NCBI RefSeq assembly: GCF_000179595.2 | Contig: NZ_JH556653.1 | Location: forward strand, 1,922,059-1,986,058 | Length of the DNA: 64,000 nt | Direction of reading: 5' to 3' | DNA from: Acetivibrio cellulolyticus CD2 | GTDB taxonomy: Bacteria > Bacillota > Clostridia > Acetivibrionales > Acetivibrionaceae | Shown: positions 216 through 22,407 of the stretch, piece by piece | Layout: every line of letters starts with the position of its first letter | Position numbering within the stretch: position 1 is the stretch's first letter | Made by a program: the position numbers and the translations under genes | Notes under the pieces: model-generated | The model's database searches: none | Seen by the model: the letters and a program-made list of their open reading frames with translations, nothing else | Told to the model about the DNA's origin: nothing

Positions 216-2327
216 CTACATCTGCTTCTCAATCTTGTCGGCAACTTCGCTAATTACCCTACTTAATAAAGCCTCATAAGTTAGATTTTGAAATATTTTT
301 TTCTTCCCATTATCTATAATTTCCTGCCTCTTTTCTGGATTTGCAAGATAATAGTCAACTTTTTCATATAAATCTTCTTTATTGTAATACAATATAATTT
401 CATTTCCCTCATCTAAAAGCATACGTATATTAGCCGAATCATATTCCTCTGGTATATAGGGGCCCAAGTAAAAACTATTACTTAGAATTGTCTCAAACAC
501 TCTTGGGTGTGTTGAAATATGCTGATTTGTACCAATCACTATTTTGGATGCATTAATAATTCTAGACAAAACCTCTCCATTTTCTGCAATTCCACATGCA
601 TATTTCTTTAGAACGGGATGGTTTACCCACTCATTTCCCCACAATTTCATATTATAACCTTTTTGATGCAACCACTCCAAAGGCACAGACCTGAGTATTC
701 GCCTTACTACCTCCTCCATAAACATAGTCATAAAATAATCAAAATTTAATTTATCCATGGTTATACCAAAGCTAGCAAGCCAACGCAAAACTATTTCTCT
801 GTTAGGCTCTATCCCTTGCAAAAACTCACCTTCCATAACCCTTGAATACACTTCTTCATAAGCTGATACCACTGCTTTTTTCAGTATTTCAAATCCATCT
901 CCTCCAGAGCACCTATCCAGAAAACTTTGAAGACCTAGCAAAGGGTTGCCAGCATTGGAGAAAACACATATATCAGTACTATATTTTTGTCTCTCATCCT
1001 CTGTTAATTCATAAAACTTATAAATATCTGCATTTACTGCCATAGGTGCTGTTATAAGCTGTTCATTTGGGTATCCTAAACTTAAGAATTCCCTACATGA
1101 GAAAAAAGCATTCATAATAAAATCCATATTTTTGATTTTTTTAGCAGACTCAGACGACATGATATGTGGCATTGGATCTTGTACCCAACTTATATATGCT
1201 ATATTATCATGAAAAATAGCTCCATATTCCCATCTGAAATGATCAATAGAAAACATTAAATCTGGCTTAAACTCATTAAGTAACTCCAGGTAATCCGAGC
1301 GTGTTATTTTATGTATATCCGATTTTTCTATTAAAACCTTGTTCTCAATACCTAGCTTGTCACAAGCCTTGGCACAATCTCTTATATAATACTTTAAAGC
1401 TGTTGTAAACCTTGAGGTAACAAATACAATTTTTAGTTTATGCTGTCTAAACCTTTCAACTAAAATTCCTTTTTCCAACTTGTTATAATATTCGTATACC
1501 AACTCATGCAGATCATTAATTTTGTTTATATTCCTCTTTAATTTTCCTTCTATATATTTGTAAAATTCATCTTGACCAGTAATATTTAATACTAGATCAG
1601 GCAAATGAACCTGTGAGTCAGAAAACCATTCATCTGCTTCGTCCCTTCCCATTAGAAAAACTGACCTTTCATCCTCCAATATCTTTGTAAAATCTACAAC
1701 TTGAAGATAATTAACAAACTCATTAAAGCTATCGTAATAAAAATATATAGGTATTTTAGCTGTAAGAACCGGATAGGGATCTTCCGTCTTTTCCATGCAA
1801 GCAATCATCTGTTTCTCTTTATACTCATTTCTGAAAATAATAACTTTTTTGGGCTGTAACATATTAACATCTTTTATCATATGATTTTGATCAAGATATG
1901 AAACAAATCTATCTTCTTCTTGGTCATATATGAAAAAAACATGATCATCATAAGGCAGAAATCTATAGCTAAGTTCTGAAAAGTCAGGAAATTCCCTTGG
2001 CTTAAAGTATTTATAGTTAGCTAGTGCTGTAACATTCTTTTTATACATTTCTCTAAACTCACTGACATTAGGAGAATAGAACGACTCCAATACTATTTTA
2101 GCCACTTCATCTTTGTTGAAATTTAACTGATGACACTTTTTGAAAGCATATAATGATAATGAATACATATTTTGTGAAAGCAAAAATAGAGCTATTTCAA
2201 ATATTATAGCTCCATTTTCACAGCCACTTGTTAGTAAAATGTCTTTCAATATGTCATATCCTTTAGAATCTCTATTCTCAATTTTGTTAATAGCTTCTAA
2301 AAGCATTTCGTTTATATTAAGTTCCAT
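216..2327 (-). CDS. CgeB-like large glycosyltransferase (paralogue 1)
   Basis: This 703-residue protein looks like a GT-B glycosyltransferase of the CgeB/DUF3880 kind. The N-terminal ~90 residues are helical and TPR-like. A central segment (about 300-440) begins with FVTSRFTTAL and contains the patterns SIDHFRWEYG and SWVQDP. The C-terminal part has IVIGTNQHISTHPRVFE followed by SNSFYLG, which resembles the nucleotide-sugar binding end of Glycos_transf_1_2 proteins. It shares these blocks with the gene at 4344-6539, so the two are paralogues. It is the last gene of the leftward glycosylation island. Its likely role is to transfer a sugar to flagellin or to a growing flagellar glycan; donor and acceptor cannot be told from the sequence. 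The ribosome-binding site is not ideal (AGGAG about 12 bases upstream of ATG). Confidence 0.8.
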   Translation of the reverse strand: MELNINEMLLEAINKIENRDSKGYDILKDILLTSGCENGAIIFEIALFLLSQNMYSLSLYAFKKCHQLNFNKDEVAKIVLESFYSPNVSEFREMYKKNVTALANYKYFKPREFPDFSELSYRFLPYDDHVFFIYDQEEDRFVSYLDQNHMIKDVNMLQPKKVIIFRNEYKEKQMIACMEKTEDPYPVLTAKIPIYFYYDSFNEFVNYLQVVDFTKILEDERSVFLMGRDEADEWFSDSQVHLPDLVLNITGQDEFYKYIEGKLKRNINKINDLHELVYEYYNKLEKGILVERFRQHKLKIVFVTSRFTTALKYYIRDCAKACDKLGIENKVLIEKSDIHKITRSDYLELLNEFKPDLMFSIDHFRWEYGAIFHDNIAYISWVQDPMPHIMSSESAKKIKNMDFIMNAFFSCREFLSLGYPNEQLITAPMAVNADIYKFYELTEDERQKYSTDICVFSNAGNPLLGLQSFLDRCSGGDGFEILKKAVVSAYEEVYSRVMEGEFLQGIEPNREIVLRWLASFGITMDKLNFDYFMTMFMEEVVRRILRSVPLEWLHQKGYNMKLWGNEWVNHPVLKKYACGIAENGEVLSRIINASKIVIGTNQHISTHPRVFETILSNSFYLGPYIPEEYDSANIRMLLDEGNEIILYYNKEDLYEKVDYYLANPEKRQEIIDNGKKKIFQNLTYEALLSRVISEVADKIEKQM

Positions 2328-2385
2328 ACCTCAAGGTTTCTCCTATCCTCATAAGTGAATACTCAATAACATAAGATATATAAAT

Positions 2386-3465
2386 CTAGACAAAATTAAC
2401 GTGTTTAGGTGGATGTGACACTTTCCAGAGAAATTCATTTATCGAATGTGTTTTACAATTTGAGTAGCAACCCTTTACATCAATCTGTTTTATTTTTTCA
2501 ACTACATCCCAATACTTCTCACTTTCAATTATCTCCTTAAATGAGTTTTTCGTAAGATCCCCCATACAGTATTCATTTTCCTTATATTCAAAAAACATAC
2601 CACATGGGTATAACTTACCATCTCCACTGGAATAAAGTAAAAACGGCGTACCAAGACACGTTTCATAGCATCGCTGACCTTCGTTTGTAATATGCTGCCA
2701 TTTAATTATAACATCATATTTTTCACTGCTAATACTTTCAGCTTCTCTCAGAATGCTCTCAAAATTTTTATATGAAGAAAGTTTTTCGTATATACCCAAA
2801 TTTGATTCTTTTGTATCACTACATTGCTTAACAACCAAATAGTCAACTCCTAGCTCTTCTCCAAGTTTAGCCAATGGAACAACCTGGTCAACGTTTGAAG
2901 GTGTCAATACCATTTGCAAGCCTACAGTTGTTTGTAACTGGTATTTTCTCTTAACACCTACACAGAACTTTATTTTTTCGATAACTTTTTCAAAATCACT
3001 ACTTCTGTGTATCCTTTTATATGCCTCGAAAGATGCGGCACTTATATTAAACCTTATCCAAGTCAGGTGCTTTAATGCTTCCACTCCAGCCTCTCCAGTA
3101 TCATATAAAATACCATTCGTTCCCAAAGATATATCTACCCCTGACTTTTTCCCCAGCACAATAGCCTCGTAAACATGAGGATTTAAAAGCGGTTCACCTT
3201 CACCTATAAAAGCCATTGAACGGACACCTATCTCACCTGCATCCTTTACATATCTTAATAGAGCTTCTTTCTGGAAATAGCTATCTTTTCCGCCTTTATA
3301 ATGGTTTCCTTGAAGGCTTCCAAAACAATATTCACAATGTATATTACAGCCCTTGCTTAAACCTACATCAATATGAATCGGTGCAATTCTTTTACCCTGT
3401 ACCCAATCATTCACTCTATCTAGATGCCATAGCATTTTATTGCTGCCCATCAAGTATTTATCCAT
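2386..3465 (-). CDS. Radical SAM enzyme with SPASM-like C-terminus (1)
   Basis: A 359-residue radical SAM protein. The CX3CX2C cluster motif is Cys40, Cys44 and Cys47, and the SAM-binding GEGEP lies at 88-92. Further cysteines at 266, 270, 288, 300, 333 and 337 suggest a SPASM or twitch domain with auxiliary iron-sulfur clusters. It ends in HVNFV, a tail shared with two other radical SAM proteins of this island. GGAGG lies 7 bases before the ATG, and the gene is 11 bases downstream of the RmlD-like gene, so it is in the same operon. The reaction is unknown. The setting suggests modification of a sugar nucleotide, a glycan or flagellin. The N-terminal pattern RV-DW--GK resembles the enzyme at 12442-13515, so they are close paralogues. 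Confidence 0.9.
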   Translation of the reverse strand: MDKYLMGSNKMLWHLDRVNDWVQGKRIAPIHIDVGLSKGCNIHCEYCFGSLQGNHYKGGKDSYFQKEALLRYVKDAGEIGVRSMAFIGEGEPLLNPHVYEAIVLGKKSGVDISLGTNGILYDTGEAGVEALKHLTWIRFNISAASFEAYKRIHRSSDFEKVIEKIKFCVGVKRKYQLQTTVGLQMVLTPSNVDQVVPLAKLGEELGVDYLVVKQCSDTKESNLGIYEKLSSYKNFESILREAESISSEKYDVIIKWQHITNEGQRCYETCLGTPFLLYSSGDGKLYPCGMFFEYKENEYCMGDLTKNSFKEIIESEKYWDVVEKIKQIDVKGCYSNCKTHSINEFLWKVSHPPKHVNFV

Positions 3466-3476
3466 ATCAAGCCCTC

Positions 3477-4328
3477 CTAAAAGTTATCTTTAATATACTT
3501 GCAATAGTCCGCTACCGCTTCCTGCCATGGTCTTAAACTCTTTATTTTGCTTGATTTTAGAGGGGTATTCGTATTCTTTATTCCTATGCTTTGAAAACTC
3601 TTATGTGAAACCTTCTCTAATTCAACTTCCACTTCCAGATTACTAAATATTTCTTTCATTAAGTCATAAATCGAAGCTGCGCCTTGGTTTGACAGGTGGT
3701 ATAACCCATAGGGCATTTCATTTTCTATTATTTCTTTTACTGCTTTTGCTATATCGATACTATAGGAGGGTGAAGTTATTACATCACAGGATACCTTTAG
3801 CTTCTCTCCCTGATTTAGTGCTTTATCCAGCATTCTTTCAACAAATTGGTTATTTTTATTAGAAGGTCCAAATAATATTGGTAGCCTGAAGATGTAATGT
3901 CTATGAGCAATATTGCTTACAAAACAGTCCCCACCATATTTTGTAAGACCATATACATTTAATGGGCAAGGTCTATCAGCTTCTATAAAAAAGTTTCCAG
4001 GTTCATTATCTTTAAATACACACTCTGTACTGAAATTCACCAGCAAAAATTCAAACTTATTTGATAGTTCAGCTAAAAGCTTTGGATATAGAGAATTAAT
4101 CCTAAGACTTCTTTCGGGGTTTCTCTCGCAATCATCTATTCCCTGTGCTGCAACAGTATTGATGACAATATCAGGCTTGTAATTATCTATGAGAGAAGTA
4201 ACTCCTTCAAAGTCAGCTACATTAAAGTTTTCGCTATTCTTGCCTATTATATTATAACTTTTGGCTAGCTCAGAGTTTAAAGCTGTTCCCACCTTTCCTC
4301 TTTCACCCAATAGTAATATTGACTTCAT
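3477..4328 (-). CDS. RmlD-like NAD(P)-dependent sugar nucleotide reductase
   Basis: This 283-residue short-chain dehydrogenase resembles dTDP-4-dehydrorhamnose reductase (RmlD). The N-terminal dinucleotide-binding loop is GERGKVGTAL, and the catalytic YGLTK supplies the Tyr and Lys of the YXXXK pair. The length is normal for RmlD. No RmlA, RmlB or RmlC accompanies it here, so it may reduce another 4-keto-deoxysugar made in the island, perhaps the product of the C-methyltransferase at 6601-7824. GAGGAG lies 7 bases before the ATG. It sits between a radical SAM gene and a glycosyltransferase with 11- and 15-base gaps, which fits one transcript. Confidence 0.85.
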   Translation of the reverse strand: MKSILLLGERGKVGTALNSELAKSYNIIGKNSENFNVADFEGVTSLIDNYKPDIVINTVAAQGIDDCERNPERSLRINSLYPKLLAELSNKFEFLLVNFSTECVFKDNEPGNFFIEADRPCPLNVYGLTKYGGDCFVSNIAHRHYIFRLPILFGPSNKNNQFVERMLDKALNQGEKLKVSCDVITSPSYSIDIAKAVKEIIENEMPYGLYHLSNQGAASIYDLMKEIFSNLEVEVELEKVSHKSFQSIGIKNTNTPLKSSKIKSLRPWQEAVADYCKYIKDNF

Positions 4329-4343: not shown

Positions 4344-6539
4344 TTACTGCTCATGTAAATTATAAAAGCTCTTTTGATCGGCACTCTCTTCTATATCAAA
4401 TTTATAAATATTTCTAAGTCTATCCACTAACATTTCTAGTATATTTCTGATAAAACCCTCATAGGTGTATTTTTCTAAAACACTTGCCGTACCTAATTCA
4501 ATAATCTCACTTCTTTTTGGTGAATTATTCAAACAGTAATCTATCTTATTAAACATGTCATCTTTGCCGTCAAATAATAACATCTCCTTGTTTTCTATAA
4601 AAAAGCTTTTTATTTTTGAAGTATCAATATCCCCTGGTATGGATCGGCCTATATACATACAATTGCTCAAAATCACTTCAAAATACCTATAGTGCATTGA
4701 TATATACGGGCTTAATCCCAGTCCTATTTTTGAAGAATTATAAATTTTTGATACCTCTTCTCCATTGCTTGCACTTCCCATAGAGTATTTAGATAATATT
4801 GGATGGTCACTCCAGCTTTTTCCCCAGAGTTTAAATTTATATTTACTTTCATCAAGCCATTCTAAGGGAACAGATATGTGCATATTGTACTCAATTTCGA
4901 ATCTGAATATATATAGCATCCATTCAATTTCTTTATCACTTAATGTACTTAACAATGTCCCACCTAAGCACTTATTTAATATTTCCATATATTTTTGATT
5001 AGAGTAGGCGTATTTTCCCTGCCTGCACACATCATACAGCATAGAGAACGCATCCTTTAGCCTTTTAATTATAATGTCATTTTCTTGCCGATCTCGAGAA
5101 GACACTAAAGTAATTAAACTTTCATAACCGTAATAAGCATTTCCCCCATTAGCTATATAGGTTATATCAGTTGAATACTTATTAATTTCTTCATCATTTA
5201 ATTTATAATATTTGTATATTCTATGATTAACAGGAATTGTATACTTGATTATTTTGCCTTCTGGATAACCTAGTTCATCAAACTCCTTATAACTTGTATA
5301 CGGACTAATTATAAAGTTCAAGTCACCTAGCTTCGAAGGGGAGTTAACATCCATTATTTGAGGCAATGGATCCTGTATCCATGTTATAAAAATTATTTTG
5401 TTATTAACCACTGGATACTCCCATGCAAAATGGTCAATCATAATAATAAGATCCGGTTTGAACTCGTTTATTTTATCTAAAATAGATAGACTACTTAACC
5501 TATAAATATCTGATTCTTCAATTAATAAATCACATGGTATATTTAAATTAGTACATGCTAATACACAATCTCTTATACAATATTGTAAAAAGGTCGTAAA
5601 TCTGCTCGTAATAAATAAAATACGTGGCCTCAAATTCTTTAACCTTTCATATAATTTTAATAAATCAAGGTTACTATAGTAATAATCTATTTCTGTTTGA
5701 AGTTTAACAATATTGTTTAGTTTATTATTGTGTAATTCCCCCATTTTTTCTAAAACCATTTTGTTCATTTCAATATCAAGTTTATTTCCTTGAATTAGCG
5801 AAGGATTTTGTGTTTGGCTGTGTGCAAACCAAGCCTCAACATCATTAATTCCAAATAAAAACACTAATCTTTTCAGGTCAAATATTTCTGCTAGATCAAA
5901 CAATTGCGCGGAGCATAAAAAAAATTCAAAGTCAGAATAAAATAGATATAAAGGTTTTTTCATACCAGGAATTGGTTCTTTTTGATAGGTTTTTCTTTCA
6001 TATTCAAGAATTTGCTTATTATTAAACTCATTAATAATTAATACAATATCCCCAGCATTGAATTGTTCCATATTTTCATTTTTTGAATTATTAAAATTTA
6101 TTACTTTTACAATATTACTATTCTCTTTTTCAAAAACAATGTACCTATTGTCATCCATACACAAGCAATAATATTTTAAATCCTCAAATTCTGGAAATTC
6201 TCTCTGTACTTTATATTCGTAATTTTTAAGCTTTTCTATGTTATTTAAATAAGTATCCTTGTTTTTTTGGCAAGTTAATAAATAAAACTCATTAAGTATT
6301 TTTCTCTTTGTAGCTTCCTTTAGATAGTCAAGTTTATAGCACTTAATAAAAAAACTTAATGCTTCACTCGAATAATTATACTTAAGCATTAATTGAACAA
6401 TTTTATATAGTATATCCCCACATTCATCTCCACTTATTACTAACGCTTTATTAAGCAAATTTAAAGCGTTAGTAAAGTTACCTTTTTTATCTTCTTCCTG
6501 CGCAAGGTTAACATAACTTTCCCATTCTTCTTTTAGCAT
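4344..6539 (-). CDS. CgeB-like large glycosyltransferase (paralogue 2)
   Basis: A protein of about 731 residues and a paralogue of the one at 216-2327. Shared blocks include FITSRFTTFLQYCIRDC, MIDHFAWEYP and TWIQDPLPQIMD, and a C-terminal FEVILSNCMYIG that resembles the donor-binding end of CgeB-type GT-B enzymes. The N-terminal ~100 residues look TPR-like. The ATG at 6539 is preferred to the TTG two codons upstream because TTGAGGG lies 6 bases before it. Having two divergent copies in one island suggests two successive sugar transfers. The coding strand is noticeably AT-rich, more so than the middle of the island, which could reflect separate acquisition; this impression was not measured. 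Confidence 0.8.
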   Translation of the reverse strand: MLKEEWESYVNLAQEEDKKGNFTNALNLLNKALVISGDECGDILYKIVQLMLKYNYSSEALSFFIKCYKLDYLKEATKRKILNEFYLLTCQKNKDTYLNNIEKLKNYEYKVQREFPEFEDLKYYCLCMDDNRYIVFEKENSNIVKVINFNNSKNENMEQFNAGDIVLIINEFNNKQILEYERKTYQKEPIPGMKKPLYLFYSDFEFFLCSAQLFDLAEIFDLKRLVFLFGINDVEAWFAHSQTQNPSLIQGNKLDIEMNKMVLEKMGELHNNKLNNIVKLQTEIDYYYSNLDLLKLYERLKNLRPRILFITSRFTTFLQYCIRDCVLACTNLNIPCDLLIEESDIYRLSSLSILDKINEFKPDLIIMIDHFAWEYPVVNNKIIFITWIQDPLPQIMDVNSPSKLGDLNFIISPYTSYKEFDELGYPEGKIIKYTIPVNHRIYKYYKLNDEEINKYSTDITYIANGGNAYYGYESLITLVSSRDRQENDIIIKRLKDAFSMLYDVCRQGKYAYSNQKYMEILNKCLGGTLLSTLSDKEIEWMLYIFRFEIEYNMHISVPLEWLDESKYKFKLWGKSWSDHPILSKYSMGSASNGEEVSKIYNSSKIGLGLSPYISMHYRYFEVILSNCMYIGRSIPGDIDTSKIKSFFIENKEMLLFDGKDDMFNKIDYCLNNSPKRSEIIELGTASVLEKYTYEGFIRNILEMLVDRLRNIYKFDIEESADQKSFYNLHEQ

Positions 6540-6600
6540 AAGCAACCCTCAAGATATTTAAATTTAGTAGTTTTAACATTAGCCATATCCATAAACGTAT

Positions 6601-8007: not shown

Positions 8008-8862
8008 CTATTGACCTACTATATCTCTGCAAAATGTATCCAAAACCTCTTCTGTTGATAAAGGAACATAGCCCATTCTTTTTGCTTTTTCAATCGAGAT
8101 TATAAATGATTTCTTATCACTTATAATACTTTTAACCTCTGAAGTTGAGCCAAAAAATCTTTTTAGCCAATTAATAATGCTTTTTACTTTTAATGGTTCT
8201 CCACTTCCTAATAATACTCTTTCAATTTTTCCACAATTACTATCAACAATATGCCTTATAAACTTTTCTACATCACCAACATATACCATATTATTAAAAA
8301 AAGATTCAGGATTATATATTTCAATAGTTTCATTTTTTATTAGTCTCTGTGCTGTTTTTACCAGCCATGGTACGGTAGCGTCTTTTCCAAGGACTCCCGG
8401 CAACCGGATAATTATTGTAGAAAAGCCTCTGGCACCCTCAAATAGTTTTTCTGCTATATATTTGGTAAGTCCATACCCATCAGGGTTGATAATGGGTGTA
8501 TCCTCATCAACTATGGGAACTTCACAGTTTCCATATACAGATACGCTTGATAAAAATATAACCTTCTTTACACCTTTGTCCTCTGCATACCTAATAAGGT
8601 TTCTTGTTGCAATAACATTGTTTTCAAAATACTCAATAAAGCTACCTCTGGGAGAAGGTGACAATGCTGCTGCATGTACTATAACATCCACAGGCTCATC
8701 ATAGCTAAACCCTTTGGACAAGTCCGAAATGAAAACTGGTATAGTAATGTTATCAGGTTTTCTGCTTCTCACTACTCCAACAATTTCATAATTTGAATTC
8801 TGCCACTTTTTTGCCAGATAATTTCCAATAAAGCCACTAACACCAGTTATTAAAATTCTCAC
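8008..8862 (-). CDS. NAD-dependent epimerase/dehydratase (extended SDR)
   Basis: This 284-residue extended short-chain dehydrogenase has the Rossmann motif GVSGFIG at its N-terminus, the segment VIFLSSVSVYG and the catalytic YGLTK. It belongs to the broad sugar-nucleotide epimerase/reductase group, and the substrate cannot be read from the sequence. It starts with GTG, preceded by AGCAGGTG seven bases upstream. It follows the methyltransferase at 8876-9538 by 13 bases in the same operon. The most likely role is reduction or epimerisation of a keto sugar nucleotide for flagellin glycan synthesis. Confidence 0.85.
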   Translation of the reverse strand: MRILITGVSGFIGNYLAKKWQNSNYEIVGVVRSRKPDNITIPVFISDLSKGFSYDEPVDVIVHAAALSPSPRGSFIEYFENNVIATRNLIRYAEDKGVKKVIFLSSVSVYGNCEVPIVDEDTPIINPDGYGLTKYIAEKLFEGARGFSTIIIRLPGVLGKDATVPWLVKTAQRLIKNETIEIYNPESFFNNMVYVGDVEKFIRHIVDSNCGKIERVLLGSGEPLKVKSIINWLKRFFGSTSEVKSIISDKKSFIISIEKAKRMGYVPLSTEEVLDTFCRDIVGQ

Positions 8863-13519: not shown

Positions 13520-15082
13520 TCAAAACTTTAGTAGTGTAGATGCAAACTTAAGAACATCCACCTTGCTCACAGCCTTTGAATTACCAAGAACATTTGCTGC
13601 CAGTGCTCCCGCTATACTTCCTAGAAACGATCCTACTTCAAACGGTACATCGAAATAAGCACAAAGGCTTGCCAGAGAAAAATACGCATCTCCCGCGCCC
13701 ACAGTATCCTGCACTGTCAGAGTCAATGCCGGAATCTTGGCAGCTTTATGTTTATCATCTGCACCAATAGCACCTAACGAGCCTAATGTAACCCAACCCG
13801 CTTTTGCGTTCATATGCTTTACCAGCCTTGTCAAAAGCTTTTCCGGGTTTTCCGACCTGTTACTGTAGGCAAGCCTTAATTCCCTCTCATCTAAAGTAAA
13901 CGTATCTGCACGTTTATACTTTGTAATAAGGTTTGTTCCATAGTTCGATGAGTTAGTCTGACAATTAACCGCTAAAAACGCAGCTTTGCTCTGAACTATT
14001 TCCATAACTGTCTCATCTATAAGTCCATGTCCAAAATCAGTAACTACAACCATATCAAAATTTGGAACAATATTTTCTAACTTTTCATAAAAGGCTGTTT
14101 TATCTGCCCTGATATTTTCTTCATAATCATTAAGATAGTTAATTGAGAAGAGCTTTTCGTATTCATTTCGAATACCATGGCGCTCAATAAATCTACGTTT
14201 AATTATAGTATGGAAATTGGGATCGAACTGTAAATCAAGCAGCATATCTTTTCCTAAATCATTCAGTATACGACTGTGAATATGTGGCTCGTCCCCAACC
14301 ACTCCACAGACAGTTACATTCTTTGAAAAGTTTGCAAGATGTCTTGCAATAGCGAGAGAGCCTCCAAGGTATCTTTCCTCATTGAAGTACTTGGCTGAAA
14401 AAGCTCTGTCCTTTGACATTAGGCCTTGAACAACGCAGAATATATAGTCATCAATAATTATATCTCCTATTACAAGTACCTTTATATCTTTCATCAGGTC
14501 AACTGTTTCCTTAACTTTTTTAAAGCTGCTCCTTTGTGAAAATTCTCTGGCAAATTCGGCCACATTGGGTGGCATCACAGGAAATGCATTATTCAAGAGT
14601 TTTGTAGAGCTGAATACTTCACCATTTGTATAGAAGACATCTCCGCCAAATAAACGAACCCTTTCGACCTCCTTATCAATATTTCCAGTAACATCATTGT
14701 CTGCATTCTCATATTCCGAACCTTTCACATATAGATCAGGCTTTATACATTCCATAATATCAATTACCGTAACAGCCTTAGAAAGCAATACATAATCAAC
14801 GCAGGAAAGAGCAGCCAATGATTTCATTCTCTGCTCATCTGTGAAATATGGTCTCCCCGGACCTTTATTGACGTATGGAGCTGAAGTTACAGATACAACT
14901 AATGTATCTCCCTGAGCTTTTGCTTCTTCAAGGTGACCTATATGGCCAGGGTGAAGCAAGTCAAAAACACCGTGGCATTGGACAACTTTTTTCCCCTCTG
15001 CCCTCAGCTTTTCCCGAAGTTTACTGAATGTTTCAGTTGAAACAATCTTTTCTTCAATAGCACTTGTACTTCTTCCTCCCAT
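13520..15082 (-). CDS. Cytidylyltransferase-PfkB sugar kinase fusion (HldE-like, reversed order)
   Basis: A fusion of about 520 residues. The first ~150 residues form a nucleotidyltransferase with the HXGH motif (HPGH near 44-47) and the conserved YVKGSEYE. The rest is a PfkB-family kinase whose catalytic GAGD lies near 462-465. E. coli HldE has the same two activities but with the kinase first, so the order here is reversed. It may phosphorylate a ketose or heptose-like sugar and activate it as an NDP derivative. The ATG at 15082 is chosen because AGAGGGG lies 6 bases before it; the earlier in-frame ATG lies inside the upstream gene. Only 2 bases separate it from the aminotransferase stop. 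Confidence 0.88.
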   Translation of the reverse strand: MGGRSTSAIEEKIVSTETFSKLREKLRAEGKKVVQCHGVFDLLHPGHIGHLEEAKAQGDTLVVSVTSAPYVNKGPGRPYFTDEQRMKSLAALSCVDYVLLSKAVTVIDIMECIKPDLYVKGSEYENADNDVTGNIDKEVERVRLFGGDVFYTNGEVFSSTKLLNNAFPVMPPNVAEFAREFSQRSSFKKVKETVDLMKDIKVLVIGDIIIDDYIFCVVQGLMSKDRAFSAKYFNEERYLGGSLAIARHLANFSKNVTVCGVVGDEPHIHSRILNDLGKDMLLDLQFDPNFHTIIKRRFIERHGIRNEYEKLFSINYLNDYEENIRADKTAFYEKLENIVPNFDMVVVTDFGHGLIDETVMEIVQSKAAFLAVNCQTNSSNYGTNLITKYKRADTFTLDERELRLAYSNRSENPEKLLTRLVKHMNAKAGWVTLGSLGAIGADDKHKAAKIPALTLTVQDTVGAGDAYFSLASLCAYFDVPFEVGSFLGSIAGALAANVLGNSKAVSKVDVLKFASTLLKF

Positions 15083-15084
15083 TT

Positions 15085-16182
15085 TTATCCCCTCTTTATG
15101 ACTTGACATATTTTTTTGATCTCTTCTTTTGTCAAACTAACAGAGCTTGGCAGGTTTAACCCTTTTAGCCCTAATTCATTTGTTGTATCAAGCTTACTGC
15201 ATCTAAATTCCTTATATGAAGGCATTGAATGAACCGGCATAAAAAACGGCCTACTTTCTATGTTATTCTCCTTTAGCCTCTTAATAAGCTCATCTCTGCT
15301 TTCACCATAACTATCCTCCACAACAACCGAATAAAGCCAGTTAATATTTCTTATACCCGGTTTCTCTACGGGGATTGAAATCCCTTGTACCTCACTTAAT
15401 AACTCGTTATAAAATAATGCATTTCTGATTTTGGCATCGATGTGAAACTCAATATTTTCAAGCTGAGCTACTCCCATTGCTGCAACTATGTTCGGCATCC
15501 TATAGTTAAATCCGATTTCCTCATGGTAAAAACCACCATTGGGCAATACTGTCTTCGTTTGGTTCGACAGGTATTTTGCATATTCACCCAATCTTTGATC
15601 GTTTGTAACCAGCATCCCGCCTGCACCAGTAGTTATCAGTTTATTTCCGTTAAAGCTAAAGCATCCTATATGTCCGATAGTTCCCGTGTGTTTTCCTTTA
15701 TAGAGGGAACCCAAGGATTCGGTAGCATCTTCTATTACATAAAGCCCATATTTATCTGCAATTTCCATTACCATGTCCATATCAACAGGATGTCCATATA
15801 TGTGAACAGGCAAAATTGCCCTGGTTTTCTCAGTTATTAATTCTTCGATAAGTCTGGTATCCATAACATAAGTATCTCTTAAAGCGTCACAAAAAACAGG
15901 AGTTGCACCAACATATCTTATTGCATTGACAGGAGAGATAAAAGTAAGTGAAGGCACTATGACCTCATCCCCCGGTTTTATTCCCAAACTCATAAGAGCA
16001 AGATGTATGGCAGACGTCCCATTGACTGTTACAATAGAATGTCTGCATTTTATAAAATCTGAAAATTTTTCTTCAAAAAGATTAACATAACTTCCAACAC
16101 TCGAAACCCAATTAGTATCTAGGCAATCCTTTATATACTTCCACTCATTTCCTGAAAGGTAAGGTACTGATAGTGGTATCAT
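15085..16182 (-). CDS. legC: LegC-like PLP-dependent sugar aminotransferase
   Basis: A 365-residue aminotransferase of the DegT/DnrJ/EryC1/StrS family. The catalytic lysine is Lys181 in SFNGNK, and Asp152 in VIEDATE would hold the pyridine nitrogen. The opening residues (IPLSVPYLSGNEWKY) are typical of the LegC subgroup, which converts a 4-keto-6-deoxy sugar nucleotide to its 4-amino form in legionaminic acid synthesis. It lies directly downstream of the LegB-like dehydratase, which would supply that substrate. Assignment to the family is firm; the exact sugar (UDP or GDP linked) is not. Confidence 0.88.
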   Translation of the reverse strand: MIPLSVPYLSGNEWKYIKDCLDTNWVSSVGSYVNLFEEKFSDFIKCRHSIVTVNGTSAIHLALMSLGIKPGDEVIVPSLTFISPVNAIRYVGATPVFCDALRDTYVMDTRLIEELITEKTRAILPVHIYGHPVDMDMVMEIADKYGLYVIEDATESLGSLYKGKHTGTIGHIGCFSFNGNKLITTGAGGMLVTNDQRLGEYAKYLSNQTKTVLPNGGFYHEEIGFNYRMPNIVAAMGVAQLENIEFHIDAKIRNALFYNELLSEVQGISIPVEKPGIRNINWLYSVVVEDSYGESRDELIKRLKENNIESRPFFMPVHSMPSYKEFRCSKLDTTNELGLKGLNLPSSVSLTKEEIKKICQVIKRG

Positions 16183-16218: not shown

Positions 16219-17211
16219 TTATACATTGTATATATCGGTTTTATATCTTTCCACGTTTTCACTCAGCCATTTAATAGTTTTCTCCAAGCCTTCATCAAGA
16301 CTTACTTGCGGTTCGTAGCCCAATATTTTTGATGCCTTTTCAATACTGCCTAAAAGTCTGAACACTTCACTTTTTTCCGGTCTCATTCGCTGCTCTTCGC
16401 TTATGATGTCTATTTCCTTTCCCATTATATTAGCTATTTTATTAACAAGATCACCTATTGAAATTTCCCTTCCGGATCCTATATTTATTACCTGCCCTAT
16501 TGAGTCGTCTCTTTCTGCTGTCAGCATAAAGCCCCTTATTGTATCCGAAACATAGTTTAAATCCCGAGTAGGTTTCAAATTCCCAACTTTTATCTCCTTT
16601 TTTCCACTTAGTATCTGGGTTATTACTGTTGGAATAATAGCCCTAGCTGACTGTCTTGGTCCATAAGTATTAAAAGGTCTTATTGTAGCAGCAGGTACGT
16701 TGTATGAATAAAAGTAACTTTCAACTATTTTGTCTGCACCGATTTTACTTGCCGAATACGGGGATTGTCCCTGCACGGGGTGGTTTTCATCTATAGGTAC
16801 ATATTTTGCTGTTCCATAAACCTCACTTGTAGAGGTATGTACTACCTTCAACACATCACATTCCCTGCATGCCTGCATTACATTGAGAGTACCCAGAACA
16901 TTGGTTTTAGCATATGCATCAGGTGCTGAATATGAATAGGGTATGGCAATAAGGGCAGCTAAGTGCATGACAACCTCATTTCCTAACAATGCTGATTTGA
17001 GGCCGAAATAATCTCTAATATCACCAGAAACTACATTGATCTCCTTTTTAACTGTTTCCGGAAAGGTATCAATCCATCCCCAGTTTCCAAAAGAATTATA
17101 CTGAACCAATGCAGTAACATTGCAACCTTTACCTACCAAAGCTTCTGTCAGGTGACTTCCAATAAAACCTTCAGCGCCGGTTACAAAGACTTTTTTGCCC
17201 TTAAGCTCCAT
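16219..17211 (-). CDS. legB: LegB-like sugar-nucleotide 4,6-dehydratase (extended SDR)
   Basis: A protein of about 330 residues of the extended SDR family. The NAD-binding loop is TGAEGFIG at 11-18, and the catalytic residues are Thr/Ser around 127-129 (HTSTSEVYG) and Tyr152 with Lys156 (YSASK). This fits a sugar-nucleotide 4,6-dehydratase of the LegB kind, the first committed step towards a 4-amino-4,6-dideoxy sugar. The ATG at 17211 has GGGAG upstream; the in-frame start 28 codons earlier lies inside the preceding gene and has no support. The true start overlaps the nucleotidyltransferase gene by 11 bases, so translation is probably coupled. Confidence 0.88.
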   Translation of the reverse strand: MELKGKKVFVTGAEGFIGSHLTEALVGKGCNVTALVQYNSFGNWGWIDTFPETVKKEINVVSGDIRDYFGLKSALLGNEVVMHLAALIAIPYSYSAPDAYAKTNVLGTLNVMQACRECDVLKVVHTSTSEVYGTAKYVPIDENHPVQGQSPYSASKIGADKIVESYFYSYNVPAATIRPFNTYGPRQSARAIIPTVITQILSGKKEIKVGNLKPTRDLNYVSDTIRGFMLTAERDDSIGQVINIGSGREISIGDLVNKIANIMGKEIDIISEEQRMRPEKSEVFRLLGSIEKASKILGYEPQVSLDEGLEKTIKWLSENVERYKTDIYNV

Positions 17212-18283
17212 TTTTTTCACTCCCGAAATATTTATTGATTTCTTCATTCGCCTTATAATAATCCTGTGTACGTCCAATATCCATCCAGTATTCACGTATC
17301 GGATAGTTTCCTACATTTTTATCATTTTTTATTGCCATATTAATAAGATCTGTCATTGCAAAATAGGTATTGTCCGGAATATAGTCAACCATATCCGGGT
17401 TTAATATATAAATACCAGCATTTATTGAAAAAGAAAACTCAGGTTTTTCTTCTATTGAACTTATTTTTTCACTTTCACAGTTTAATACTCCAAAAGGTAC
17501 CTGGAACACATAATTGCGTGTCGCTACCGTAATATCGTTAGAACATTCATTATGATAGGTCAGAAAGCTGCAAAAGCTTAAATTGGTAAGGATATCCCCA
17601 TTAATTACAAATAAAGGGCTGTCTACATACTTTTTCATCAAACTGATTGAACCTGCTGTTCCATAATGCTCCTTTTCCTTTATATATTCTATATTGACTC
17701 CAAATTCAGAGCCATCCTGGAAATAATTCTCTATTATGCTAGAATGATAATTTACCGATATATAGATATGTGTAAAACCTTGTTTCCTAAATTGGCCAAT
17801 TATTGTCTCAAGTATCGGCTTTTCCCCAACTTTAAGCATTGGCTTTGGTATATCATCAGTAAGTGGACGCAATCTGGTTCCCAAACCACCCGCCATAATA
17901 AGTACAGGGTTGTTTTTCGTAGGGTGCGAAAACAGGTCTTCCATAAGATAGATACCTGTAGGTTGCTTCTTTTGATTAAGTACTGGCAGCTGTTTTATTT
18001 TTTTTGAATCAAATATACCTAAAATTTGTTGTCTATTTAACTGTTTTTCAGTTACATAAGTAAATCCTGCCTGCATAATGTTGTGTATTTGTAGGTCAAG
18101 GTCTTTCCCTGAAAGAATTGCACGTCTAATATCTCCATCGGTTACGGTACCTCGGAGCATTTTGTTCTCATCAACAACCAAAACAATTCCCATAGCACCT
18201 GCATCCATTACCTGCATTGCATTCTTGATCGTTTCATCCATTCCAACAAGTATATTATTTACCTTCATAATATTCATAGACAT
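17201..18283 (-). CDS. CBS-domain nucleotidyltransferase (PtmE-like)
   Basis: A protein of about 360 residues. The first ~118 residues hold a CBS-domain pair (for example TVTDGDIRRAIL), and the rest is a sugar-1-phosphate nucleotidyltransferase beginning with MAGGLGTRLRPLT. This layout is that of Campylobacter PtmE, which makes GDP-glucosamine for legionaminic acid synthesis. The CBS pair may sense an adenine nucleotide. Several starts are possible (GTG 18289, ATG 18283, ATG 18277); the ATG at 18283 is 5 bases after TTAGG. It precedes the LegB- and LegC-like genes in the same transcript, consistent with supplying their substrate. Confidence 0.87.
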   Translation of the reverse strand: MSMNIMKVNNILVGMDETIKNAMQVMDAGAMGIVLVVDENKMLRGTVTDGDIRRAILSGKDLDLQIHNIMQAGFTYVTEKQLNRQQILGIFDSKKIKQLPVLNQKKQPTGIYLMEDLFSHPTKNNPVLIMAGGLGTRLRPLTDDIPKPMLKVGEKPILETIIGQFRKQGFTHIYISVNYHSSIIENYFQDGSEFGVNIEYIKEKEHYGTAGSISLMKKYVDSPLFVINGDILTNLSFCSFLTYHNECSNDITVATRNYVFQVPFGVLNCESEKISSIEEKPEFSFSINAGIYILNPDMVDYIPDNTYFAMTDLINMAIKNDKNVGNYPIREYWMDIGRTQDYYKANEEINKYFGSEKNGA

Positions 18284-18391
18284 CAACACCTAACTCTATT
18301 TATTAGATATCTAGTGCTTATATACTTAAAACTTTATAATGGTAAATTGCATTTATGCATCTTATGTAATTATATAACTGAAAAATATTCT

Positions 18392-19102
18392 TTATATATT
18401 TCTTCTATTCATTAGGAATTCCGCAAACAGAAAATCAGTTTCATCATCAATATCTATTGAACTTGTTCTATCCATTAAATATGGTACTGAACATGGAGAT
18501 TGAAACCCTTTATTTTCAATGAATCTATTCAAACTTGATATGTAGATACCTCCATTTATTCTATACATTTGGGGAAAATCCTGCCTTTTTTTAAACTTTT
18601 CTTTATCATAATCTAAAAAATCCTTAAGAAAGTTGTTTGAATCTGTCGTTTTTAGCCAAAAAGGAGGATGTTCTTCTTTACATACAGAAATAAGAGAATC
18701 TGCTTTACTTTCATTTTTAAGAAAAATTTCAAATGCCTCATCAATATGCGCAACGCTTCTCAATGGTGATGTGCACTGCAATAATACTATATAATCTGGT
18801 TTGTAACCTGAGTCTTTTTCCAGACTATTTAAAACATGAAATATTACATCTGCTGTTGTAGAATTATCCTGCGCAAGGTCCATAGGTCTTTTTATAAGTT
18901 CAGCTCCAGATTTTAAAGTTATATCCCCAATTTGATCATCCTCAGTCGATACAACAGTCCGTGTAATATACCTGGATTTAAGACTTTCTTCAATTGTCCA
19001 GCTTATAAGGTGCTTTCCGCTAATTATTCTAATGTTTTTACCCGGCAAGCCTTTCGAACCCCCACGTGCTGGTATTATCGATAAAACCTGATTAGCATTC
19101 AA
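18392..19102 (-). CDS. CMP-nonulosonate (acylneuraminate) cytidylyltransferase
   Basis: A 236-residue enzyme of the NeuA/LegF/PseF family. The CTP-binding motif PARGGSKGLPGKN stands at the N-terminus, with VVSTEDDQI and LLQCTSPLR further on. Such enzymes activate a 2-keto-3-deoxy acid sugar with CTP. No NeuB-type synthase that would make such a sugar is found in this window. The start is a TTG with AAGGTGAT just upstream; no in-frame ATG or GTG is better placed. It is the first gene of the downstream part of the island, and a promoter-like sequence is seen about 65-95 bases upstream. Confidence 0.9.
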   Translation of the reverse strand: MNANQVLSIIPARGGSKGLPGKNIRIISGKHLISWTIEESLKSRYITRTVVSTEDDQIGDITLKSGAELIKRPMDLAQDNSTTADVIFHVLNSLEKDSGYKPDYIVLLQCTSPLRSVAHIDEAFEIFLKNESKADSLISVCKEEHPPFWLKTTDSNNFLKDFLDYDKEKFKKRQDFPQMYRINGGIYISSLNRFIENKGFQSPCSVPYLMDRTSSIDIDDETDFLFAEFLMNRRNI

Positions 19103-19196: not shown

Positions 19197-19237
19197 GTAT
19201 TTATTGCCTTAGAAGTAACAAACTGCCACAAACCAAA

Positions 19238-20179
19238 TCATATTCCGTCATAAGTGTGGTAACAATCCCTGCATAAAGGAAGTTTTTCCATACCCATTTC
19301 ATCAAGCATCTTACGATAGTTGTTCATTTTATCACAATGCCATGCTTCCCTTAGGCTCATACTCTTAACATTACCCAGAATCATATAGTTATCATGATCT
19401 GCACAGCAGGCCGTAATATCACCGTTCCAATTTACCGATATCTTTTGATATACTTCTGTACATGGTGAATATATCTTTTTTACAGTCTCCCTTGGAAGAT
19501 ATTGTGCAATTTTATCATGATAGTCATCCTTATCAACCATAGCAAAATAAGTTTTTCCAACTCCAACAGAATCAACAATTGCTTCCCAAAATTCTACAAA
19601 CTCGTTAACTTTCTCATCTGGCTCATCAGTAACCGTTGAAGAAATATGAACGAAAGGTATTTCTTTTCCATGTAATCTTCTTATTTCCATCAAGTTTTTA
19701 ATATTATTTACCAATAAATCATATTTATTGTTGTTTCTCATATCTTCATACCCTTCTTTATCTGCACCCTGCATGGATATTATCAAGCTGTCAATGCCGA
19801 GGTTTACAAGTTTTTCGGCCCGTTCACTGTTTAAGAGAAGTCCATTCGTTGTCATATGCAGAAGTACACCCTTTTCTTTTGTATATGAAATAAAGTCAAA
19901 TATTTGTGGGTGGAGAAAGTGTTCCCCCCACCTTATCAATCTTATAGCACTCCCATATTTAGCGCACTCATCCACAACATTTTTGTACACTTCGAGACTC
20001 ATATTACCACATTCTCTTTTCATTACATTCCTCGAACACATTTTACACATAAGGTTGCAGTGATTGGTTGGCTCCACATCTACCATAAATGGGAATTCAC
20101 TTAACGGCAGCTTGTTGGCATTAGAATACTTTTCGCTTCTATATATTTTTGCAAATTCGTTAACCAGTTGTTTTTTCAT
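19238..20179 (-). CDS. Radical SAM/SPASM protein (4), next to the Maf glycosyltransferase
   Basis: A protein of about 313 residues with Cys41, Cys45 and Cys48 in CNLMCKMC, followed by a region with SLIISMQGAD and IRWGEHF. Near the C-terminus are Cys residues in YSPCTEVY, DITACCADHD and LPLCRDCYH, as in SPASM proteins. It lacks the HVNFV tail of the other three radical SAM enzymes. The ATG at 20179 is preferred because AAAGGG lies 9 bases before it, while the ATG three codons earlier touches that site. It overlaps the end of the small gene upstream by 20 bases. It may act on flagellin or its glycan, but the substrate is unknown. Confidence 0.88.
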   Translation of the reverse strand: MKKQLVNEFAKIYRSEKYSNANKLPLSEFPFMVDVEPTNHCNLMCKMCSRNVMKRECGNMSLEVYKNVVDECAKYGSAIRLIRWGEHFLHPQIFDFISYTKEKGVLLHMTTNGLLLNSERAEKLVNLGIDSLIISMQGADKEGYEDMRNNNKYDLLVNNIKNLMEIRRLHGKEIPFVHISSTVTDEPDEKVNEFVEFWEAIVDSVGVGKTYFAMVDKDDYHDKIAQYLPRETVKKIYSPCTEVYQKISVNWNGDITACCADHDNYMILGNVKSMSLREAWHCDKMNNYRKMLDEMGMEKLPLCRDCYHTYDGI

Positions 20180-20525
20180 ATCCGGCATCCCTTTCTAAAA
20201 TTGTTTTCCATCCGTCTAGAACCTTTATCATTTCATATTCCAGTGTATCCGCTACAAAAATATAATCTACATTTTCAAAAGCATCCATCATAGAACTGAT
20301 ATAAGGAAAAACATCTGTAATCTGTACATTATGATTCTGCTTTTGGATCTCAAGCTCTTGGATAATATACTGAAGATTATCTAAGTACGCACCTATTGAG
20401 GAATTGACAGAATTATAATTTCTTTCATATATATTATTTACAATTTCATCAGACATAAAAATCAACTTATTAATATGCTCTGCTAAATTTTCAAGTTTCT
20501 CTTTGGAACGAGCTTCATTGTGCAT
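20160..20525 (-). CDS. Small unknown helical protein between Maf and radical SAM genes
   Basis: A 121-residue protein, not recognised. It is rich in charged residues, Asn and Ile and is probably almost all alpha-helical, with no signal peptide or membrane segment. It overlaps the stop of the Maf-type glycosyltransferase by 11 bases and the start of the radical SAM gene by 20 bases, so all three are probably translated together. A short helical protein in this place could be a chaperone or an accessory subunit for flagellin modification, by analogy with FlgN or FliS size and composition; that is a guess. Confidence 0.75.
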   Translation of the reverse strand: MHNEARSKEKLENLAEHINKLIFMSDEIVNNIYERNYNSVNSSIGAYLDNLQYIIQELEIQKQNHNVQITDVFPYISSMMDAFENVDYIFVADTLEYEMIKVLDGWKTILERDAGYEKTTG

Positions 20526-22407
20526 TTTGATTTCCCACCTTTACTTGATCTTCTGCTTTTTGCCTTTCAAGAATACTATAGATATAATTGATATTATCGA
20601 GAATAAACCCATATTGTTTTTGAAGTCCATCCATAAGTATCCACCTCTTTTTCTCTTTGTCCTCCTCTACTTCTGCAAGTCTTTCATTTGCGTTTTTTAG
20701 AGAAATAAGAAACAGTCTGGCTATTGGTGTAAGAAGGTTTATGAAACAATCATATCTTTCCAGTCTTTTTGTAATACTTTCGACCTTTTTCCATTTCTTA
20801 ACGTCAAACATCTTTTTATTTACCATTTCGTTCATAATTTTAAGCCTAAGTATTCCCAATTTTCTCATTGCTTTTATTTCCTCTGAAAGCTTCAGCATAA
20901 AACTGTCAACCTTTGGTGCAAATTCTAAAGCTCTGCCTTTTTCATTTTCATAAACCCCTCCAAGGAGTCCTTCTATGTCATATTCATTCTTACAGTACTT
21001 ATCTATAGCATCTGACAAATTCATATTCGGAACTCCATCAATAGGTATTCCACCTTCAGTGCAATTAATAACCTCCACATTCTCAGTCGTTTTTAAATAG
21101 TCCTCAAAATATATTTTGATAGAGAGCATGGGTTGATCTGTATAGATATCATTACCATTAATATCTTTCATTAATATATTGTCACTTTTCTTAGAATTTG
21201 TAGCCCTGTCGCGTATTGTTTTATCCCATTTATCTTTTAATACTGCCCCATCAGCGTATACCTCCATGCCAGTAAAGCCAAGATCTTGTCCTATCAAAAT
21301 AATTGGACTGCACCCCCATATCCTTGCTATATCAAGTGCAGAATTTGAAACCGATGCTCCCGAACACGTTCCTAGAGAATTAATACCAACCTTTTCTTCA
21401 AACCATTTTACATATGTTGAAGATGCAGTTCTATAATAAAGCTTCGGCCCTTTATAGCTCTTGACTGCCTTATAATACATTGGCACAGTATACAAGAAGT
21501 ATATATCTTTTGACTTTACACTTCCAAATATTTTATATTGATCTTCCCCAGGATCCACCCCTGCCATTATATGGGGCTTAATACCCCTACTTTCAAGAAT
21601 ATTTATCGCAGAACCACAGGAAATAATCAAAGCTTTATCATAGACTCCCTTCAGCAATTCAATATTTTTCTTTAGAGAAGGTCCAGCAGAAACGATAATT
21701 GCCGGTATACCTTTGAAATTGTCCTTATATTTATCATAAAAAACACTCTCAGGAATTTCCCTAATATTTTCACAAAAATTCTCATACCACTCTTTTTTGA
21801 ATACAAAAAGTGTATTGACATTAATATTGAAAATCTTTAAATACTTTATATACTGCTTTTTAAACTCTATCCACCAATCACCATAAAGGCTGTCATAGGA
21901 AACAAGCTCTGCAAACTCAATACAATCTACCTGCCCAGAGGACCTAAGTCCCATAACAAGTTTTACAATATTCTCTATTTCATCTCCTATTACAAATAAA
22001 ATATTTTGGCTCTCTATGATATTTACTATATCCCTGTTGCGAAGCAATAACAAAAATATAGATGGGTCAGGCTCTATAATTATTTTGTTCTTGTGCGGGT
22101 ACTCCTTTACAATTCTATCCAGATGATATCCTACTCCTGCACCAAGAATAATTATAGTGTCTGCAACCTTCACATTCAGGGTCTTTATCCATCTGTCAGC
22201 TTCCTTGAAGGGGTCATAATTGCTATGTAAATAGACTTTTCTTGAGTTACGGCTAACCCTGAAGTTCAGCATCCCATTCCTGGTTTTTTCTAATTCAATA
22301 TGTTCGTATGACATTTTTTCATTTGAGTTGTATTGTTCCAAGTTTCCTGCTAGATCCGGCCATTTTTTTCTTATCGCATCTATATTATTTTGAAATATGG
22401 AGTTCAT
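20515..22407 (-). CDS. Maf-type flagellin glycosyltransferase (DUF115, MptE-like)
   Basis: A 630-residue protein of the motility-associated-factor family, with the DUF115 (6-hydroxymethylpterin pyrophosphokinase MptE-like) core in the middle. Recognisable segments are PAIIVSAGPSLKKNIELL and ILIGQDLGFTG. Maf proteins move CMP-activated nonulosonic acids onto serine or threonine of flagellin in the cytoplasm, before export, in Campylobacter, Aeromonas and clostridia. It lies directly downstream of the flagellins and upstream of a CMP-sugar synthetase, which fits that role. The ribosome site GAAGGGG is well placed. A terminator separates it from the flagellins, so it probably has its own promoter in the gap 22408-22580, where no clear one was seen. 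Confidence 0.9.
   Translation of the reverse strand: MNSIFQNNIDAIRKKWPDLAGNLEQYNSNEKMSYEHIELEKTRNGMLNFRVSRNSRKVYLHSNYDPFKEADRWIKTLNVKVADTIIILGAGVGYHLDRIVKEYPHKNKIIIEPDPSIFLLLLRNRDIVNIIESQNILFVIGDEIENIVKLVMGLRSSGQVDCIEFAELVSYDSLYGDWWIEFKKQYIKYLKIFNINVNTLFVFKKEWYENFCENIREIPESVFYDKYKDNFKGIPAIIVSAGPSLKKNIELLKGVYDKALIISCGSAINILESRGIKPHIMAGVDPGEDQYKIFGSVKSKDIYFLYTVPMYYKAVKSYKGPKLYYRTASSTYVKWFEEKVGINSLGTCSGASVSNSALDIARIWGCSPIILIGQDLGFTGMEVYADGAVLKDKWDKTIRDRATNSKKSDNILMKDINGNDIYTDQPMLSIKIYFEDYLKTTENVEVINCTEGGIPIDGVPNMNLSDAIDKYCKNEYDIEGLLGGVYENEKGRALEFAPKVDSFMLKLSEEIKAMRKLGILRLKIMNEMVNKKMFDVKKWKKVESITKRLERYDCFINLLTPIARLFLISLKNANERLAEVEEDKEKKRWILMDGLQKQYGFILDNINYIYSILERQKAEDQVKVGNQNAQ

Follow-up and report, generated by a model that had tools for sequence, protein, structure and literature searches.

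A flagellin glycosylation island of Acetivibrio cellulolyticus CD2 with a mobile radical SAM cassette, and a C2-branched heptose as its possible product

Which glycan is built by an island that places four radical S-adenosylmethionine (SAM) enzymes beside flagellin genes? The question is raised by a 64,000-nucleotide stretch of Acetivibrio cellulolyticus CD2 (NZ_JH556653.1, positions 1,922,059 to 1,986,058 of the forward strand; assembly GCF_000179595.2), hereafter the window, in which a leftward block (216-22407, minus strand) containing a Maf gene and four radical SAM/SPASM genes adjoins three flagellins. We regard it as an even call that this island took up a mobile cassette, and that alongside a legionaminic acid (Leg) arm it encodes a nucleoside diphosphate (NDP)-heptose arm whose sugar is oxidised, branched with a two-carbon (C2) unit, tailored and put on flagellin. 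The computed results are the gene content, the conservation of the cassette, the swap of its thiamin diphosphate (ThDP) enzyme pair between loci, the loss of a transketolase (TK) segment and a DesII-like fold.

The first step is the nature of the island. It is a flagellin glycosylation island of the Maf type, with Maf beside flagellin and glycan genes inside flagellar flanks. All named genes are intact open reading frames; those at the two ends of the block, with the adjoining flagellar genes, are as follows.

216-2327, minus strand: GT1, CgeB-like glycosyltransferase (Pfam Glyco_trans_1_2 61 bits), with an ortholog (656 bits) beside the cassette in genome G696
4344-6545, minus strand: GT2, CgeB-like glycosyltransferase (Glyco_trans_1_2 67 bits)
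19238-20188, minus strand: rSAM_D, radical SAM/SPASM protein (Radical_SAM 67.8 bits), a separate lineage
20160-20525, minus strand: protein of 121 aa whose gene overlaps those of Maf and rSAM_D on either side
20515-22407, minus strand: Maf flagellin glycosyltransferase (MptE-like 167 bits, Maf_flag10_N 36.6)
22626-23441, 23522-24337 and 24416-25234, minus strand: three flagellin genes, the presumed glycan acceptors
25737-26216, minus strand: FliW, start of the flagellar flank, then FlgL-like (26853) and FlgK (27903 and 29517)

A further 20 kb was read to the left of the window (locus L001), where the block continues for ∼12 kb past the window's edge, across a scaffold gap, up to FlaG-FliD-FliS; the whole island measures ∼32 kb and is flanked on both sides by flagellar genes. 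The gene order in L001 is a short-chain dehydrogenase/reductase (SDR; GalE/LegB-like), a GmhA-like SIS isomerase, NeuC, NeuD, a B12-binding radical SAM protein, NeuB, a WbuX amidotransferase, a glycosyltransferase (GT2)+TPR protein, HisF, HisH and a GmhB-like phosphatase, followed by FlaG, FliD and FliS. The gap (100 N; L001 19900-19999) lies directly left of window position 1, and the end of GT1 (window 122-536) is duplicated across it over 415 bp at 99.3% identity with 3 mismatches, reflecting either overlapping contig ends or two near-identical GT1 copies. At the corresponding position G001, G012 and G013 encode weak homologs of the 121-aa protein, for which a role as partner of Maf or as chaperone of flagellin is conceivable. 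A second Maf-family gene occurs in the same genome (G000:C1:86000-105000, L100), with 33% identity to the island Maf and no cassette genes nearby.

The second step is the cassette, whose window members are listed here together with two other sugar genes of the block.

2386-3465, minus strand: rSAM_A, radical SAM/SPASM protein (Radical_SAM 65 bits), putative tailoring enzyme of the cassette; nearest folds DesII and BlsE
3477-4328, minus strand: RmlD-like SDR reductase (RmlD_sub_bind 188 bits), also paired with rSAM_A in locus L025
6601-7860, minus strand: sugar C-methyltransferase-like protein (Methyltransf_13/23/14)
8008-8862, minus strand: SDR of the Epimerase family (Pfam)
8876-9538, minus strand: MT, SAM-dependent methyltransferase, accompanying rSAM_B in relatives
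9564-10502, minus strand: TKc, C-terminal half of TK, without the SH...GED segment of housekeeping TKs
10499-11344, minus strand: TKn, N-terminal half of TK, ThDP motif GDG...N retained
11356-12429, minus strand: rSAM_B, radical SAM/SPASM protein (Radical_SAM 77.6 bits)
12442-13515, minus strand: rSAM_C, radical SAM/SPASM protein and cassette marker (Radical_SAM 69.5 bits), with a DesII-like fold and one auxiliary four-Cys site
13520-15109, minus strand: NTk, cytidylyltransferase-like + PfkB kinase fusion, HldE-like with reversed domain order

The mobile cassette consists of rSAM_C, the HldE-like kinase/nucleotidyltransferase, GmhA, an SDR and a ThDP pair, with rSAM_A or rSAM_B in addition, and three of the four window radical SAM genes (A, B and C) belong to it. 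Scanning of 84,980 species with an rSAM_A/C alignment yielded 69 loci; 32 were analysed, in which rSAM_C is full-length and 31-51% identical to the query. They span about ten phyla, including Myxococcota/Deltaproteobacteria, Nitrospirota, Campylobacterota, Pseudomonadota, Omnitrophota, Planctomycetota, Elusimicrobiota, Nitrospinota, Actinomycetota and Bacillota. Neighbours found within 10 kb of rSAM_C were an SDR (19 loci), the HldE-like fusion (17), GmhA (15), rSAM_A (13) and rSAM_B (4); rSAM_A and rSAM_B never occurred together in these loci, and both are present in the window. On the tree the two form clean orthologous groups (99 and 100, respectively), and rSAM_B is homologous to rSAM_C over its full length (hhalign E 4e-45). 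A ThDP pair accompanied rSAM_C in 26 of the 32 loci, as pyruvate dehydrogenase (PDH)-type E1 alpha/beta in 18 and split TK in 8, never both, and in none of 36 control loci fetched via unrelated radical SAM matches (Fisher P 2e-13), these controls being other radical SAM loci and not matched polysaccharide clusters. The type of pair requires at least eight changes on the rSAM_C tree among labelled loci. The cassette recurs in surface-glycan clusters and seems to be undescribed; open-access literature yielded nothing relevant on radical SAM enzymes in flagellin glycosylation islands, on O-antigen with TK and heptose, or on virenose.

What might the ThDP pair contribute? Branching of keto-sugars is known or proposed for three ThDP families, namely YerE-like decarboxylases, alphaKADH2 and split-gene TKs (PMC12247030, PMC4425429, PMC4753412), and the cassette alternates between exactly two of them, an alphaKADH2-type E1 and a split TK. 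The alphaKADH2 enzymes are E1 alpha/beta pairs (AviB1/B2, Pau11/12) with pyruvate as donor and C2 units only (PMC12247030, PMC4425429); branching by split TKs in miharamycin and amipurimycin is proposed and unproven, the 13 listed enzymes all being from Streptomycetes (PMC12247030). Pfam confirmed E1_dh in the E1 pairs and Transket_pyr with Transketolase_C in the TK pairs, the cassette E1 alpha was nearest to PDH E1 alpha, and a simple motif search near the cassettes put no E2 partner in sight, with one lipoyl-domain-like motif only. The cassette thus resembles the C2-branching systems in its two protein families, in encoding E1 alpha and beta, or the two TK halves, by separate genes, in its location in sugar clusters and in having no E2 partner by motif. 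It differs in that the known cases concern antibiotic sugars, whereas the cassette is associated with surface or flagellar glycans and comes with a heptose set and radical SAM enzymes.

The TK halves themselves point the same way. The island pair is not the housekeeping enzyme, as another split TK with a stronger Pfam match is encoded elsewhere in the genome; a split TK was rejected as remarkable in itself, the housekeeping one being split as well. The segment SHAGLTVGEDG of the housekeeping TK is replaced by TGAGFAYSTLG in the window TKc, and in the alignment all ten cassette TKc sequences (the window and nine others) were without SH...GED, which is kept by the organism's own housekeeping TK, 6yaj and human TK. 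The cassette TKs retain the ThDP motif, the catalytic Glu and the following His. In TktA of E. coli, this segment's His and Asp touch the sugar phosphate and the acceptor hydroxyl. The cassette TKc of four Campylobacterota loci and of two others end ahead of the Transketolase_C domain. Judged by sequence, segment loss and short TKc would fit a changed acceptor. An APH-family kinase gene stands directly before TKn in three TK-type cassettes (L030 5937-7010, L038 11661-12767 and L025 ∼2000) and was not found in the window.

These data also bear on a plainer account, in which the island makes an NDP-heptose and Leg, the radical SAM enzymes carry out ordinary sugar editing (epimerisation, deoxygenation or dehydration) and the TK supplies sedoheptulose-7-phosphate, no branch being formed. 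GmhA requires sedoheptulose-7-phosphate, for which a TK is the natural source, and radical SAM sugar dehydratases are known, AprD4 being discussed in PMC11434129. However, the PDH-type E1 pair that holds the TK place in 18 of 26 loci is unable to make sedoheptulose-7-phosphate, a housekeeping split TK exists elsewhere in the genome, and the SH...GED loss extends to every cassette TK. Because TK and E1 alternate at one step and E1 cannot make that compound, we think that the ThDP pair branches a sugar, and we hold simple editing to be unlikely, though a serious contender.

The third step is the chemistry of the radical SAM proteins. All four in the window exceeded the Pfam Radical_SAM cut-off of 29.5, carry CX3CX2C and have a SPASM match over its own cut-off; the whole genome has 54 Radical_SAM matches, the next leftward one lying just outside the window. 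The original prediction of a leftward glycan block after three flagellins, with radical SAM genes at 2386, 11356, 12442 and 19238, was borne out, as was its inventory of Maf, CMP-sugar synthetase, LegB/LegC-like enzymes, split TK, fusion, two methyltransferases, two SDRs and two CgeB-like glycosyltransferases. Compared with solved structures, the rSAM_C profile matched DesII best (E 1.4e-12), along with anSME, BlsE and MoaA. The AlphaFold2 model of rSAM_C (pLDDT, the predicted local distance difference test, 90.5) again placed DesII on top (338 residues, Z 26.1, root-mean-square deviation 3.9), followed by BlsE (Z 24.9), with SuiB and SkfB close behind, and the rSAM_A model (pLDDT 84.7) gave the same ranking (DesII Z 24.4, BlsE Z 23.9). 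DesII (dTDP-4-amino-4,6-dideoxyglucose ammonia-lyase) and BlsE are thus the closest solved folds of both proteins, DesII over nearly the full length. DesII deaminates a TDP-amino-sugar and dehydrogenates TDP-quinovose, converting an NDP-sugar to its 3-keto form (PMC11434129).

From fold and gene neighbourhood we think that rSAM_C may act on an NDP-sugar. DesII has one [4Fe-4S] cluster, whereas rSAM_C has, besides CX3CX2C, four further cysteines for an auxiliary cluster (C270, C288, C331 and C335; all invariant in 34 of 34 alignment rows), which sets it apart from the single-cluster DesII type. For an oxidation, where an acceptor is needed for the electron of the radical, such a cluster would be well suited. 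In its auxiliary site rSAM_C is more like BtrN. Residues 272-345 of rSAM_A align with BtrN 169-242 in a weak profile match (E 9e-5), in agreement with the positions that we take to be the cluster ligands of BtrN. The branching E1 pair of avilamycin was described with the nonheme iron enzyme AviO2 (PMC4425429), and by analogy a radical SAM oxidase might be its oxygen-free counterpart. The B12-binding radical SAM protein (L001 14519-15907) matched HpnJ/PhpK/BchE-like models and has an ortholog in G696 (802 bits), with weaker homologs in the flagellar islands of G008 and G012; its role may be C-methylation of the glycan.

Maturation of peptides is a frequent function of SPASM proteins, and SuiB and SkfB are among the structural neighbours found here; lysine methylation of flagellin is also known in other bacteria. 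The radical SAM enzymes could therefore modify protein (flagellin or a precursor peptide, by methylation, crosslinking or epimerisation) and be merely housed in the island. The closest solved relatives, DesII and BlsE, are instead sugar and nucleoside enzymes, and rSAM_A, rSAM_B and rSAM_C travel with GmhA, HldE-like, SDR and NDP-sugar genes through many phyla, mostly without flagellin. We consider protein modification very improbable; rSAM_D, beside Maf, is the least constrained by these arguments.

The nature of the sugar is suggested by the remaining cassette genes. The best PDB matches of the GmhA-like isomerase were phosphoheptose isomerases, with no NCBIfam match at 1e-30, and the best match of the fusion's kinase domain was heptose-7-phosphate kinase. 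Together with the GmhB-like phosphatase (154.9 bits against a cut-off of 178) and the HldE-like fusion (151.6 against 521), these sequences point to an NDP-heptose. The ADP-heptose pathway GmhA-HldE-GmhB(-HldD) draws on the same families for isomerase, kinase/nucleotidyltransferase and phosphatase; in the island, by contrast, the HldE-like fusion is reversed and below cut-off, and the SDR is GalE-like, not HldD.

A second sugar is indicated by four further genes of the window.

15085-16182, minus strand: LegC-family aminotransferase (TIGR04181 417.1 bits, cut-off 420)
16219-17211, minus strand: LegB NAD-dependent 4,6-dehydratase (TIGR04180 487, over the cut-off of 475)
17201-18289, minus strand: CBS + nucleotidyltransferase protein, PtmE-type sugar-1-phosphate nucleotidyltransferase by its domain matches
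18392-19102, minus strand: CMP-sugar synthetase, LegF/PseF-like (PseF 131.7 bits, below the cut-off of 205.7; CTP_transf_3 92.6)

LegC and PseF fell under the cut-offs of their specific models; the L001 proteins NeuB (479 bits, cut-off 400), NeuC (453, 236), NeuD (212, 161) and the WbuX amidotransferase (387, 203) exceeded theirs. By sequence the island thus has a candidate for every step of Leg synthesis (LegB, LegC, PtmE-type and CMP-sugar synthetase in the window, NeuB/NeuC/NeuD-type on the left), and Leg or amidated Leg is probably made as well as the second sugar, an amidated derivative being suggested because WbuX with HisH/HisF is present. In having candidates for every step the island is like the Campylobacter jejuni Leg (GDP-sugar) pathway (PtmE, LegB, C, H, G, I, F and amidation genes), from which it differs by the added second sugar cassette with radical SAM genes.

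Is the cassette an old part of this flagellar locus? In G001 (same genus) and G008, G012 and G013 (same family) the locus shares the frame flagellins-Maf-small protein-second Maf-...-FlaG-FliD, and within it no matches were obtained with the four radical SAM proteins of the window, GmhA, the HldE-like fusion, TK or E1, the cargo being another nonulosonic acid (NulO) set; a B12-type radical SAM protein occurs in the locus of G008 and G012. Of 14 family genomes one has rSAM_C, close relatives of which were missing from nearly all of 391 class genomes, and of 291 class genomes one has rSAM_D (E 1e-40). Conservation of the radical SAM genes with the family's flagellar locus, one of the expectations attached to the original prediction, was rejected by this absence. 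The position is conserved and the radical SAM content is acquired, not ancestral to the locus; because the locus is hypervariable, non-conservation is evidence of cargo exchange and not of an ordinary glycan. Foreign origin was also considered via base composition, which was not decisive (island genes 28-39% G+C, window 35%). The Clostridium flagellar hypervariable region (PMC13317340; pseudaminic acid (Pse)/Leg genes) is alike in its variable glycan genes between flagellar genes, its end at fliD and its NulO pathway, and differs in that a term search of the main text of PMC13317340 finds no radical SAM, heptose or transketolase.

The cassette was nevertheless found in flagellin/Maf islands of other lineages, although most cassettes lie elsewhere. 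In G424, a member of a different family within the phylum, a run SDR-GmhA-fusion-rSAM_C-rSAM_B-TKn-TKc-MT lies 30 kb downstream of a flagellin that is accompanied by FliS-FliD-FlaG-FliW-FlgL-FlgK. G696 has rSAM_C (62% identity), GmhA, GmhB, the fusion, an SDR and the orthologs of GT1 and the B12 radical SAM protein, together with PtmE, CMP-sugar synthetase, NeuB, NeuC, LegB, LegC and a Maf-family gene, with an E1 pair in place of TK. The Arcobacteraceae genome G802 has six flagellins, Maf, mostly same-strand genes, further radical SAM genes and a TK-type cassette within ∼30 kb; the window is therefore not alone in combining flagellin with many radical SAM genes in one island. Proteins of the pyruvate kinase-barrel, ATP-sulfurylase and PPDK_N-like types are also encoded in the G802 island (L122-L123, G802:C25:95000-129680) and might form a sugar arm of the sulfo or enolpyruvyl type. 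Among 20 genomes, three cassettes lay within 31 kb of flagellin against ∼1.5 expected by chance (P 0.18, not significant); a post-hoc demand for a downstream, same-strand position lowered the expectation to 0.36 (P 0.006), and G790 has its intervening genes in the opposite orientation. Since proximity was not significant, it is the gene order of individual islands, and not the count, that ties the cassette to flagellin.

Most cassette relatives are in clusters without flagellin, with an ABC transporter near L033, and the heptose cassette might serve another surface polymer (capsule or S-layer glycan) while only housed in the flagellar locus. Yet here it lies inside the Maf-FlaG interval, the site of flagellin glycan genes in relatives, in G802 and G424 it belongs to a mostly same-strand run below the flagellins, in G696 it has a Maf-family gene as neighbour and is accompanied by the same GT1 and Leg genes, and neither a polymerase nor a flippase was recognised among the island genes. 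We regard such a destination as improbable.

The proposed branched-heptose pathway can then be set out. In the Leg arm, CMP-legionaminic acid, probably amidated, would be placed on flagellin by Maf. In the other arm, GmhA would convert sedoheptulose-7-phosphate to heptose-7-phosphate, which the HldE-like fusion and GmhB would activate, and the SDR would epimerise the NDP-heptose. rSAM_C (DesII/BtrN-like, with one auxiliary cluster) would oxidise a hydroxyl of this NDP-heptose to a ketone, to which the ThDP pair would add a C2 unit, hydroxyacetyl by the TK type here and acetyl from pyruvate by the E1 type of most relatives. Tailoring may be carried out by rSAM_A with the RmlD-like reductase and by rSAM_B with the methyltransferase, and the CgeB-like glycosyltransferases may move the tailored sugar to the flagellar glycan. 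Substrate, keto step, branching and attachment to flagellin are what we infer here; a C2-branched heptose is our best reading as the most economical product, and is unproven. An unusual, possibly C-branched and radical-modified glycan, as originally predicted, thus stays the best reading at the level of inferred chemistry, while the complete Leg set and the second, heptose cassette had escaped that prediction.

Several points weigh against this reading. The GmhA, GmhB and HldE-like scores lie under NCBIfam cut-offs and the sugar may not be heptose; the DesII fold is common to many radical SAM enzymes (SuiB, SkfB and viperin are close) and proves no function, and DesII lacks the auxiliary site of rSAM_C; and the control loci were of the unmatched kind described above. 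Six of the 32 loci have no recognisable ThDP pair, some being cut by contig ends, which means that rSAM_C need not be followed by branching. The cassette is found mostly away from flagellin. Linkage of the island's left part is a scaffold join, which is supported because G696 holds the same gene set together. In L033 (11055-13038; Lachnospiraceae UBA7202) an aminotransferase and a formyltransferase come after rSAM_C and a ThDP pair is missing, which also counts against obligatory branching and suggests that the rSAM_C product is processed differently there (amino, formylated); the keto-sugar may thus be channelled in several directions.

Tentatively, and with rather more doubt than confidence, we propose that these loci represent a widespread, unrecognised anaerobic route to C2-branched heptoses of bacterial surface and flagellar glycans, in which a radical SAM dehydrogenase yields a keto-NDP-heptose that is branched by a split TK (hydroxyacetyl) or an E1 pair (acetyl), flagellin carrying the sugar beside Leg. 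About 30 loci in diverse phyla offer a test ground for radical SAM enzymes that prepare keto-sugars for ThDP carboligation in cell-surface glycans, and supply non-Streptomyces split TKs that may use ketone acceptors, a function unproven for the split-TK family (PMC12247030). Branched sugars of a new family would, if the proposal is true, bear on flagellar antigenicity and on the biocatalysis of tertiary alcohols.

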